This document shows, piece after piece, positions 18,124 to 23,593 of a stretch of DNA of 64,000 nucleotides. Position 1 is the stretch's first letter; every line of letters begins with the position of its first letter. Under the pieces are notes generated by a model. That model was not told where the DNA came from and did not search any database. It saw only the letters and a list, made by a program, of their open reading frames with translations. The translations under genes and the position numbers were made by a program. The stretch lies in assembly GCA_004124385.1 (NCBI GenBank), contig SCKN01000006.1, positions 1-64,000 on the forward strand. The letters run 5' to 3'. Origin of the DNA: Fidelibacterota bacterium (GTDB lineage: Bacteria; Fidelibacterota; Marinisomatia; Marinisomatales; TCS55).

Positions 18124-19089
18124 TTATTGATTGGCGAACTTATTCCACACCAAAATGATTTCATCGGCTATATCATCCATACTTCCAAATTTTTCTATAT
18201 CAATCTCAACCGGATTTCCACGATTTCTAAACCACGTATATTGACGTTTGGCAAATTGTCGAGTCCGAATTACAATTTCCTCTTCCAATTCTTCTATGGA
18301 ATATTCACCATCCAAATATTGGCAAATTTGGCGATACCCAATTGAATTTAACGCGTGAGCTTTTTCAACAGAATAATTTTCACGTAATACTTTTGTTTCT
18401 TCAATCCAACCATTCTCCAACATACTTTTTGTCCGTTCCCTGATTCGATTTATTAACAGCTGCCTCTCCATTGAAAGTAATACAGTAAAGATTGAATGCC
18501 TGCCCGCCTGTCTACCGGCAGATAGGAATGGTTGATTGGATGTTTGTTCTTTAAAATGCTCTGTAGGAATTTTGCCCGTAATTTCAACTATTTCCAACGC
18601 TCGAATAAGTCTCTTCTTATTATTAATATGCACTTTTTCAGCATAGTCTGGATCAATATCTTTCAGTTTTTTCAACATAACATCCGGTGCTTCGTCATAT
18701 TCTCTACTTAATCGCTCTCTTATGTCCGGATTTGTTTTACTCTCTTTAAATATACCTAATGTTAGGGCATCTAAATACAAACCAGCTCCGCCGCAAAGAA
18801 TGGGTTCTTTTCCTTTATTTTGTATTTTACCTACAATATCTTTTACCAAATCAGCATATTCGCCGGCAGATACAGTTTCATTGGGTTCCCGAATTGATAT
18901 AAGATGATGTGGAATACTATTTACTTCTTCCAAGGTAGGTTGAGCTGTTCCAATTGACATTCCTTTATAGATCTGTCGAGAATCAAGACCAATTATTTCG
19001 CCATTTATTTTTTTGGCTACTGCAATGGCAACAGACGTTTTCCCTACAGCTGTAGGGCCAACAATGGCAAGTATTGGATTTTCTGACAT
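18124..19089 (-). CDS. miaA: tRNA dimethylallyltransferase
   Basis: The 321-residue enzyme adds a dimethylallyl group to A37 of tRNAs reading UNN codons. The P-loop is GPTAVGKTS (11-19), followed by GLDSRQIYKGMSIGTAQP and the catalytic region CGGAGLYLDALTLG. LLSMERQLLINRIRERTKSML and the C-terminal RTRQFAKRQYTWFRNR complete the family. Residues about 189-199 (LSAGRQAGRHS) are an insertion encoded by an imperfect palindrome and fall between conserved segments, probably on a surface loop. The gene stands apart from the pyr leader and is divergent from the kinase fusion. Confidence 0.94.
   Translation of the reverse strand: MSENPILAIVGPTAVGKTSVAIAVAKKINGEIIGLDSRQIYKGMSIGTAQPTLEEVNSIPHHLISIREPNETVSAGEYADLVKDIVGKIQNKGKEPILCGGAGLYLDALTLGIFKESKTNPDIRERLSREYDEAPDVMLKKLKDIDPDYAEKVHINNKKRLIRALEIVEITGKIPTEHFKEQTSNQPFLSAGRQAGRHSIFTVLLSMERQLLINRIRERTKSMLENGWIEETKVLRENYSVEKAHALNSIGYRQICQYLDGEYSIEELEEEIVIRTRQFAKRQYTWFRNRGNPVEIDIEKFGSMDDIADEIILVWNKFANQ
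18498..18526. repeat. Palindromic insertion inside the miaA coding region
   Basis: The 20-base segment 18507-18526 is a near-perfect palindrome centred on CCGG, with arms CCTGTCT and AGATAGG. It is preceded by GC-rich CCTGCCCG, unlike the AT-rich surroundings. It inserts in frame, encoding SAGRQAGR-type residues. I see no second copy in this window. Confidence 0.6.
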
Positions 19090-19215: not shown

Positions 19216-21018
19216 ATTAAATCTAGACAAATATCAGAAAAGATACTTGTTATCGGCGGTGCATCGTTGGATACACTCACGATAAACAGTACAGATTATT
19301 CGTCAGCGGGCGGAGCAGGTTTGTACACAGCACTTGCAGCTGCAAAATCAGGGGTTGAAGTTACTCTATTTTCACCTTTTCCTGACCCTATGCCAAAAAG
19401 ATTGGAAAATGTTACATCCATTGTACATTGGATAGGACCAACAGTTACTCCGGATAAGATGCCCGGATTCCATATTGTTCAGGAAGAAAATAATACAATT
19501 TATAAACAATCATTTTTTGGGGCGGAAGAAACATTATCTCCTGATGATTTACCGAATGATCTTTCAGATTTTGATCTCATTCACGTCGTTCCATTAGGGC
19601 ACACTTCAAGGCAATTAACATTCATTCAAGCATGCAAAGACCGTGGTGCTAAATGTATTTCTGCTGGAACGGGAAAACCACTCATTAAAGATAATCTCCA
19701 CCTAATTCATACAGTTATTAACGAATCGGATTATTTTTTTATGAATGACGAGGAAGCAAACGCTCTCTTTTCATCTAATATTGAAATTAAAACGGATTCA
19801 GGAAAATGTCTATTCATTACCAAAGGCCGACAAGGCGCTTCTGTGTATTTGGGTGATCATGAGATTAAAATTAATCCAGCTCCATCAACAATGCTAGATC
19901 CAACCGGTGCGGGCGATACATTTTGCGGAGCAACATTAGCAGATTTAGTAATAGGCAAACATCCAGCCATGGCTGCCATGAATGCGTCCGCACTTTCTGC
20001 TGAAATGATACAGGGAATTGGGCCTGAAAAATTATTGTCTCAATCTCCACCTCCGAATATTAAATCGGATATACGCGTTATTGTAAACCATGAGCAAATA
20101 CAAAAAACAGCAGATTTAATTTCCGGGCTTAAAGATGAAAAGCCATTTGATTTTGTTACATCCTCCCTACCGTCTATAAATCATCCATTAACTGTGGATT
20201 ATTTTTTCGTTACAACACTCCAGCAATTTAGTTTTTGGTCAACAAAAAATGGTCGATATCATTTACCTTTAATTGATACCATTGGCGGAGAAGAATTAAA
20301 AGGCGCCTTTTATCTCTTTATGGCATATACCCAATTATTGAATTCAGATCCCGACTATTTTTCACCGGAACGACAAGCAAATTCAACAATGGATGAAATG
20401 ATAAAATTATTTTGTTCTGATGGTGGAAAAGATGTCATGCCCGCCATTGAAATGCATTTACAGATTGCTCAACGTTACGGAAAAACTATGTTAGAACTAG
20501 GTTGGACTCCACAAAGTATTTTACACGAAGCTCAACATTCATCCACACCATTAAAAACACTCTTATCCATGCTGGATCATTTAGGAGGATATGGAAAAGA
20601 TCCCTTGCGGAAAAAAAGTTCTCTCTTGGCGATGATTTTGAATAATCGACCGGAAACATATTTTAAATTTGGAAATGATGAATTACTCCCTCCCATTATT
20701 GATTATCATTGTATGCGGTCCAATCTCCGAATGGGTCTTATCGATGTAGTGGATAATACTTTACATCAAAAATTAGTAAATAGAGACCTTATTAACGAAG
20801 CAGATGAATGGGCGGTTAGATATGCGGCCTATAAGGCTGTAGATTATTTACCAGGATTGTCCGGTCGCTCCATGGCAACGGTGGATGAATATTTTTTCTT
20901 TTCACGAAAACGTTGCCCGGAAATGACCGAACCAGATTGCTCCAATTGTAGTGCAGACCCTGTATGCGCACATCGAAAAGAATTATTTCAACCTGTCATT
21001 CGCACTGATTTCTATTAA
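19216..21018 (+). CDS. PfkB-type kinase fused to an HhH-GPD-like (Fe-S N-glycosylase-type) domain
   Basis: The first ~270 residues are a PfkB/ribokinase-fold kinase: ILVIGGASLDTLT, GGAGLYTALAAAKSGVEVTLFS, and the catalytic/anion-hole motif DPTGAGDTFCGAT (about 228-240). The remaining ~320 residues carry IIDYHCMRSNLRMG, spacing D-x-H-x2-R-x3-R, as in the catalytic-aspartate motif of endonuclease III/MutY glycosylases. Near the end four cysteines are spaced C-x7-C-x2-C-x5-C, close to the [4Fe-4S] loop of that family. SFW and the LLPPIIDYH context also recall the queuosine-salvage N-glycosylase (DUF2419/Qng1). A nucleoside kinase plus N-glycosylase is inferred. The conserved start lies upstream of any ATG, GTG or usable TTG: ATT 19216, seven bases after AAAGAG, is my best guess. 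The first gene of a three-gene unit. Confidence 0.75.
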   Translation: MKSRQISEKILVIGGASLDTLTINSTDYSSAGGAGLYTALAAAKSGVEVTLFSPFPDPMPKRLENVTSIVHWIGPTVTPDKMPGFHIVQEENNTIYKQSFFGAEETLSPDDLPNDLSDFDLIHVVPLGHTSRQLTFIQACKDRGAKCISAGTGKPLIKDNLHLIHTVINESDYFFMNDEEANALFSSNIEIKTDSGKCLFITKGRQGASVYLGDHEIKINPAPSTMLDPTGAGDTFCGATLADLVIGKHPAMAAMNASALSAEMIQGIGPEKLLSQSPPPNIKSDIRVIVNHEQIQKTADLISGLKDEKPFDFVTSSLPSINHPLTVDYFFVTTLQQFSFWSTKNGRYHLPLIDTIGGEELKGAFYLFMAYTQLLNSDPDYFSPERQANSTMDEMIKLFCSDGGKDVMPAIEMHLQIAQRYGKTMLELGWTPQSILHEAQHSSTPLKTLLSMLDHLGGYGKDPLRKKSSLLAMILNNRPETYFKFGNDELLPPIIDYHCMRSNLRMGLIDVVDNTLHQKLVNRDLINEADEWAVRYAAYKAVDYLPGLSGRSMATVDEYFFFSRKRCPEMTEPDCSNCSADPVCAHRKELFQPVIRTDFY

Positions 21019-21868: not shown

Positions 21869-23593
21869 CTATATACGTTCAAAACGCTTGTCCAATTCAT
21901 CAATGGAAAGCTGAACAATAATAGGACGTCCATGTGGACAATAATAAGGATGATTTGTAGCAAAAAGTCTGTTTACTAATGCTTGCATTTCTTGGATTGT
22001 AAGGGGATCGCCCGCTTTAACGGCTGCATGGCATGAATAGGATGCTGCAAGTCCCTCTTGCCAGGAACTATACTTTTTCTTATTCTCCAGAAATGAATCA
22101 ATAATTTCTCGAATAATAGCCTTTTCATTTCCCCAAACCATTTCAGAAGGAATTGCTTCTACCATAACCGTATTTTTACCGAATTCCTGCATGCGAAATC
22201 CAAGCTTATTCAAATTAGGAAGTATATCCAAAAGAACAGAAAATTCATCTGCTGAAAATTCCAGCGTCTCCGGGAATAATAGCGTTTGAGCTCCTAATGG
22301 TGCTTTATCAAATGCATCTAGAGCTTCTTCAAATAAAACGCGTTCATGGGCTACATGCTGATCAATAATTACCAATCCGCTGTTTATTTGGGAAACGATA
22401 TATTTATCATGAATCTGCCAAATATTCCCGGCACTGACCTCTTCAATAGTATCTTTCTTTTCAGACAGTTTCTCCATATATGTTTTAGCTCGTTCTAATC
22501 CACGTTGTATATGCGTATCCACCACTGGCAATGACAGAGTTCCCTGTTGAAGTTCATGGCCAAACTCTTGGAATTGAGATGACATTTTTGAAAAATCCGG
22601 TATGGTGTCTAAAATGTCGCCTAATGCATCCGCTACAGATGATTTAAGCACATGATATAATCGCCATTCGTCTTTGAATCGAACTTCGATTTTCATGGGG
22701 TGTACATTCACATCAATCTGATCTGTCGGCTGAACAAGATTTAAAACATAAAACGGGTACTCCCCTCTTTTAAGTAACGATTGAAATGCACCATAAACAG
22801 CGTTATTCAGCAAACGATGTTTAATAAATCGGCGATTAATAAAGATATACTGTTCACCGGGCCGGGATCGTAATAGATTCAAATTTCCCACATAACCGCT
22901 AATGGCAAAATCACCTTTAACAATGTTTACTTCCAGTAAATGAGCACTATATGTAGGGTCCAACAAATTATCAATTCGTTCTTTTAAACTTTCACCTTGG
23001 ATATTTATAATTTCTTTATCATCGTGAATTAATTTAAATGAAACTTCCGGATAAGCCAGTCCATACCGACGAACCATGGAAACAATCTGTCTAAATTCAA
23101 CACGGAAGGACTTTAAGAATTTTTTTCTGGCTGGAGTATTATAAAACAAGTTTCGAACGCTAATACTCGTACCCTTTACTGGTTCAGCAGGCTTTAATTC
23201 ACCAGCCTTACCATCTACGATTGAAACAGAAAACCCGTCTTTACCATTTGCACACGAAACCATTTCCATTTCCGATACAGAAGCAATACTTGCTAAAGCT
23301 TCACCACGAAAACCCAACGAATTGATATTGAACAAATCATCAATAGTTTCAATCTTGCTGGTAGTATATCGTTGAGCTGCTAACGTTAAATCTTCATTTG
23401 AAATTCCATCGCCATTATCAGTTACTTGAATGAGTTGATGCCCACCCTTTTCAATAACAACTGAAATGTCCAATGTATTTGCATCCAAACTATTCTCAAT
23501 AAGTTCTTTAACAACAGAGGCAGGTCTTTCAACGACTTCACCCGCTGCAATTTTGTTCCGGAGATCGGTTGATAAGATGTGAATTTCAGCCAT
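21869..23593 (-). CDS. mutL: DNA mismatch repair protein MutL
   Basis: This 574-residue protein has the GHKL ATPase half (VKELIENSLDA, DNGDGI, SLGFRGEALASI, residues ~28-104) and a C-terminal dimerisation/nuclease half. The metal-binding motif DQH(A)x2Ex4E is present as DQHVAHERVLFE (411-422, Val in place of Ala), together with SCHAAVKAGD and CPHGRP (from Cys552). It is therefore probably the nicking-endonuclease type MutL, unlike that of E. coli. Its start overlaps the ftcD stop by one base. Confidence 0.94.
   Translation of the reverse strand: MAEIHILSTDLRNKIAAGEVVERPASVVKELIENSLDANTLDISVVIEKGGHQLIQVTDNGDGISNEDLTLAAQRYTTSKIETIDDLFNINSLGFRGEALASIASVSEMEMVSCANGKDGFSVSIVDGKAGELKPAEPVKGTSISVRNLFYNTPARKKFLKSFRVEFRQIVSMVRRYGLAYPEVSFKLIHDDKEIINIQGESLKERIDNLLDPTYSAHLLEVNIVKGDFAISGYVGNLNLLRSRPGEQYIFINRRFIKHRLLNNAVYGAFQSLLKRGEYPFYVLNLVQPTDQIDVNVHPMKIEVRFKDEWRLYHVLKSSVADALGDILDTIPDFSKMSSQFQEFGHELQQGTLSLPVVDTHIQRGLERAKTYMEKLSEKKDTIEEVSAGNIWQIHDKYIVSQINSGLVIIDQHVAHERVLFEEALDAFDKAPLGAQTLLFPETLEFSADEFSVLLDILPNLNKLGFRMQEFGKNTVMVEAIPSEMVWGNEKAIIREIIDSFLENKKKYSSWQEGLAASYSCHAAVKAGDPLTIQEMQALVNRLFATNHPYYCPHGRPIIVQLSIDELDKRFERI

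Follow-up and report, generated by a model that had tools for sequence, protein, structure and literature searches.

A predicted PfkB kinase fused to a Qng1-like domain, a candidate salvage enzyme for a queuosine precursor in bacteria that mostly lack preQ0 synthesis

Background

In the window, that is, the whole 64,000-nucleotide stretch of DNA from a marine bacterium of the Marinimicrobia that was analysed, one open reading frame joins a PfkB-type kinase to a glycosylase-like domain, which raises the question of what such a protein would act on and which pathway it would serve. The first-pass annotation had inferred a single polypeptide that phosphorylates a nucleoside and then cuts its N-glycosidic bond, in salvage or in repair. 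Qng1, to which the second half is related, works on a 5'-phosphate. The open literature searched yielded no kinase dedicated to queuosine-type nucleosides, and no report of Qng1 joined with PfkB was found in the literature searched, most subscription papers lying outside its scope. The fusion is a candidate for a queuosine-type nucleoside kinase physically joined to a Qng1 relative. If this is true, it would explain the presence of queuosine-tRNA genes without preQ0 synthesis in bacteria of several phyla, would point to 7-deazaguanine nucleosides being exchanged within marine and sediment communities, and would link DNA-repair glycosylases to Qng1 via a common Cys (Fe-S) loop.

Results

The fusion and its parts lie in the window as follows:

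19216..21018, forward strand: whole fusion ORF, 600 aa, with the stop codon at 21016-21018
19237..20040, forward strand: PfkB/ribokinase-family nucleoside kinase domain (residues 8-275), from Pfam, profile matches and Foldseek
19897..19929, forward strand: kinase motif DPTGAGDTFCG (residues 228-238), with the predicted catalytic-base Asp234
20077..21015, forward strand: Qng1-like (DUF2419/PF10343) domain of HhH-GPD fold (residues 288-600), from AlphaFold, Foldseek and hhalign
20611..20613, forward strand: Lys466, equivalent to K199 of S. thermophilus Qng1 (K199 from the PDB alignment), invariant in both families
20701..20730, forward strand: DYHCMRSNLR (residues 496-505), with the predicted catalytic Asp496, equivalent to Qng1 D231, in a D-x-H-x2-R-x3-R pattern as in EndoIII
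20914..20967, forward strand: four-Cys loop C567-x7-C575-x2-C578-x5-C584, its Cys invariant in 72 members and its position matching that of the EndoIII/MutY Cys loop in alignments; candidate 4Fe-4S site
20986..21015, forward strand: C-terminal tail FQPVIRTDFY, counterpart of YHRTRTIYY in Qng1, with R596, T597 and Y600 in common

The 600 codons run without interruption and contain DPTGAGDTFCGAT, IDYHCMRSNLRMG and the four-Cys series, and the ORF translation matched exactly every motif of what had been described as one frame made of a PfkB kinase, a C-terminal domain and a four-cysteine tail. There is no ATG, GTG or TTG in this frame upstream of the first PfkB strand, and where the nearest homologue, from a sister species (L003), has its ATG, this frame has the ATT at 19216-19218; therefore, the start codon is either unusual or has undergone a base change. 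The fusion is not a product of chance, because eight full-length Marinimicrobia copies align throughout, the other seven being 47-78% identical to the window copy over the whole fusion, and because 91 relatives, 80 of them retained, came out of an alignment-based scan that covered 84,980 species. The AlphaFold model of the full-length protein had a pLDDT of 92.5 and a pTM of 0.92.

At least 80 relatives are spread over about nine phyla, the carriers belonging to Chloroflexota, Marinimicrobia, SAR324, Pseudomonadota, Acidobacteriota, Actinomycetota, Gemmatimonadota, Bacteroidota and Calditrichota. With an open frame of 250 codons or more upstream of the glycosylase-like domain taken as the sign of a fused kinase region, 68 of the 80 are fused. 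In the host phylum (Marinimicrobia/Neomarinimicrobiota), full-length copies occur in eight genomes and fragments in a ninth, G006, which has only fragments (L034 and L035), one of which runs up to a contig edge. In the gene tree, the Marinimicrobia copies occupy three separate places, from which it follows that this phylum probably acquired the fusion more than once. Three relatives stand alone, two in one Anaerolineaceae clade (L068 and L072) and one outside it (L079), and four other members of that clade (L064, L076, L078 and L081) have GAGE in place of GAGD. The kinase is therefore not always needed, and what is retained is the glycosylase-like half. Canonical Qng1 and the fusion type never occurred together in 76 positive Chloroflexota genomes, and a search for the fusion on phages and plasmids gave no matches.

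The first half has both the PfkB fold and the GAGD motif, with a Pfam match to PF00294 at 1.1e-19 over residues 29-270. Profile matches were to nucleoside kinases of Chlorobium (3kd6) and M. jannaschii (2c49), and the best Foldseek matches were 2c4e, 2c49, 3kd6 and 3b1q, the kinases of M. jannaschii and Chlorobium being nearest. D228-G233 are invariant in the family alignment, and D234 is at least 90% conserved. The protein fell below every equivalog cut-off in NCBIfam. In these comparisons, nucleoside kinases come nearest to the kinase domain, and the phosphorylation of a nucleoside is itself inferred.

For the second half, the Pfam model Q_salvage (PF10343) matched residues 323-449 at 1.3e-7 (31.9 bits against a curated cut-off of 25), spanning only profile positions 7-131 of 285, and 57 of 72 members reached an E-value of 1e-3 with this model. 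The AlphaFold model of the domain (pLDDT 93, pTM 0.92) retrieved Qng1 structures at Foldseek ranks 1-11 (E 4e-12 to 5e-10, TM 0.73-0.76; the first at E 4e-12 and TM 0.75), both human and bacterial, among them complexes with queuosine and the mutants D231N and K199C. Thymine-DNA glycosylase, MutY and EndoIII followed, the DNA glycosylases at E 7e-4. An hhalign comparison with 23 canonical Chloroflexota Qng1 proteins gave 97.4% and E 1e-11 over 284 columns, and its global version extends to the last residue. The proposal of a glycosylase-fold relative of Qng1 and HhH-GPD proteins was thus upheld, with Qng1 first and the Fe-S HhH-GPD glycosylases second, and it escaped both results that would have refuted it, since the C-terminal fold was not an unrelated one and since members from about nine phyla have all kept the Asp, the Arg and the four Cys.

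The active site is where the likeness to Qng1 is most specific. The 72 aligned domains show no variation at K466, D496, Y497, R501, R505 or any of the four Cys, and the D231N position of 7ulc aligns at Asp496, as does the Asp of Nth. The two families share the fold, the K199/D231 pair, E531, R535, D557, R596-T597, Y600 and the C-terminal tail, and 16 positions, K199/D231 included, hold the same residue with at least 90% conservation in both. In contrast, some 58 positions that are conserved in Qng1 differ or vary in the fusion family. Therefore, the chemistry is probably the same as that of Qng1 and the base pocket probably is not, as far as can be predicted from an alignment in which the base-contacting residues remain unchecked. 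Most Qng1-invariant residues outside the core, including D90, N93, Q228, D233, P261 and Q262 (L154 numbering), are replaced, which argues that the fusion family is a distinct variant and not a Qng1 orthologue; moreover, Qng1 lacks the four-Cys loop, whereas the fusion family has both the loop and the fused kinase.

The pattern C-x7-C-x2-C-x5-C is present in every member with a complete C-terminus, and the Asp motif and the Cys loop are in register with a small EndoIII/MutY profile (hhalign, E 0.0026, weak on its own). The Fe-S HhH-GPD glycosylases EndoIII, MutY and MIG have the same fold, the same D-x-H-x2-R-x3-R and the same placement of C-x2-C-x5-C, but their first Cys spacing is x6 and not x7, and the fusion protein adds an N-terminal beta region, the RT-x2-Y tail of Qng1 and the kinase. 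By analogy with EndoIII and MutY, a structural 4Fe-4S cluster is most likely bound here, an inference from the Cys loop as no cluster has been shown; likewise, the C-terminal domain is a probable iron-sulfur relative of Qng1.

The fold and the Cys loop could also mean that the protein, like EndoIII and MutY, is a glycosylase for DNA (or RNA), its kinase being an accessory. The window copy adjoins mutL, lying between miaA and mutL (18124-19089 and 21869-23593), two genes that are commonly adjacent in bacteria, and an alkyltransferase-like gene is located upstream of the fusion in some Anaerolineales. However, the mutL adjacency is restricted to close kin. Furthermore, structure and profile are far nearer to Qng1 (Foldseek E 4e-12 versus 7e-4), no match to the Pfam HhH-GPD or EndoIII Fe-S models was obtained in any of 72 members, in whose C-terminal domains PF10343 alone was found, and a small-molecule kinase would make little sense in DNA repair. 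A repair role was rejected on the structural ranking and the lack of HhH-GPD Pfam matches, and we hold it to be very improbable. The DUF1801 and cupin genes that follow the fusion are not conserved as neighbours beyond close kin and therefore carry little information; no recurrent neighbour was found around the fusion copies outside close kin, and no operon of the fusion with queuosine genes was found.

The fate of the queuosine pathway in the carriers is more informative. TGT was present in 31 of the 33 carriers searched and QueA in 28 of 30, while QueC was absent from 25 of 30 and present in five. Some carriers do keep queC, G271 having queC-E-D and G264 having queC and queE. QueF is retained in most marinimicrobial, SAR324 and gammaproteobacterial carriers and absent from most Chloroflexota carriers. 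What is new here is that carriers of the fusion mostly lack preQ0 synthesis and yet keep TGT and QueA. Among Chloroflexota, QueC was found in 0 of 10 fusion genomes versus 10 of 17 canonical-Qng1 genomes (p 0.003). These absences are soft because the genomes are mostly MAGs.

A survey of 245 Marinimicrobia genomes gave a similar picture: among those with QueF, the fusion was present in 7 of 34 without QueC versus 1 of 111 with it (Fisher p 1.5e-4, uncorrected for kinship). The association statistics for both phyla ignore relatedness apart from the contrasts between close kin (G000, G001 and G002 against G004 and G005; G135 against G042; G130 against G129). Local gene order strengthens the case, as the Marinimicrobia carriers have a deleted or broken queC-queE-queD next to the queF that they retain. 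The fusion-negative relatives G004, G005, G042 and G129 have queC-queE-queD-queF in a cluster, and the carriers G000, G001, G002, G006, G037 and G135 have queF alone. The carrier G130 has only queF and queC, queD and queE being gone from the site at which its kin G129 keeps all four, and the carrier G052 has a decayed queD relic (DHHYLNEIKGLENPTS, TGCIYRG) immediately upstream of queF (L245, 2140-2218). In the fusion-negative G003, of the same genus, only queF remains at the old locus, and a divergent queC-E-D, about 60% identical, lies elsewhere (L242, L243) and was probably reacquired. The fusion is not the sole way to live without queC, since 27 Marinimicrobia genomes with QueF and without QueC lack it.

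Discussion

Since the fusion occurs in bacteria that have lost preQ0-synthesis genes, its probable role is the salvage of a tRNA-modification base. The fold, the family, the conserved active site, the fusion and its association with the loss of preQ0 synthesis are computed results; that the protein salvages a queuosine precursor in two steps, with its activities, its cluster and its base all inferred, we regard as moderately probable. The PfkB domain would phosphorylate, at the 5'-OH, a 7-deazaguanine nucleoside that comes from import or from turnover, and the Qng1-like domain would hydrolyse the N-glycosidic bond of the nucleoside 5'-phosphate via Lys466 and Asp496, giving a free 7-deazaguanine base and ribose 5-phosphate. 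The freed base could enter the retained steps (QueF where present, preQ1-type TGT and QueA), and bacteria without queDEC could thereby still make queuosine in tRNA. The retained queF and the preQ1-type TGTs favour preQ0 or preQ1 as the base, itself inferred; it could be queuine in a bacterium that has a queuine lyase. It is a more tentative conjecture, possible but not one on which we would rely, that one Fe-S kinase-glycosylase salvages preQ0 or preQ1 nucleosides, for example from the tRNA turnover of neighbours, in replacement of queDEC, and that the family represents a living intermediate connecting Fe-S DNA glycosylases with Qng1.

The same reaction sequence could instead start from queuosine, which would be phosphorylated and converted from Q-5'-MP to queuine, and either a QueL-like lyase would turn queuine into preQ1 for a preQ1-type TGT or TGT would use queuine directly. 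Qng1, the nearest solved relative, binds Q-5'-MP according to the structure titles, and two carriers (G252 and G266) have TGT with no match to QueC, QueF or QueA, the gene set expected for direct use of queuine. In addition, an indirect route through QueK and QueL is already known (PMC10723273, PMC11130926). However, the pocket of queuine-type TGTs is GG[LS][AS]G (PMC10723273), whereas the carrier TGT pockets that could be read are GGL[SA]VGE or GGLSIGE, which is preQ1-type; D90, N93, D233, P261 and Q262 of Qng1 (L154 numbering) are replaced; and the retained queF would be left without a role. We consider queuosine a rather unlikely substrate. Thus, of the queuosine salvage that had been suggested as a specific possibility, salvage is favoured over repair by the tracking with preQ0-biosynthesis loss, and queuosine itself is not established as the substrate because of the preQ1-type TGTs and the replaced Qng1-invariant residues.

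Pseudouridine catabolism by PsuK and PsuG (PUKI and PUMY) follows the same logic as the proposed two-step salvage, in that a PfkB kinase makes a 5'-phosphate from which a glycosidase releases the base and ribose 5-phosphate, with a different substrate. PsuG belongs to another family than the glycosylase half of the fusion. A catabolic or house-cleaning enzyme of this sort, converting some other modified or damaged nucleoside to ribose 5-phosphate, would suit the kinase half, which in Foldseek resembles several nucleoside kinases, PUKI included, and some copies have a nucleotidase, SurE or adenosine deaminase gene nearby. It would leave unexplained the link with queDEC loss, the common ancestry with Qng1 and the near-universal TGT and QueA, and it appears improbable to us. 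Another parallel is the queuine salvage of C. difficile by QueK and QueL, which likewise makes up for a loss of preQ1 synthesis ahead of QueA and a TGT of the preQ1 type; unlike the fusion, it involves no kinase step, and QueK, a nucleoside hydrolase, comes from an unrelated family.

A different TGT pocket, GGSLG, was not seen in fusion carriers. It replaces GGLSVGE in some canonical-Qng1 genomes (L206, L207, L209-L211), several of these TGT genes adjoin the Qng1 gene, and the enzyme is a probable queuine-type TGT.
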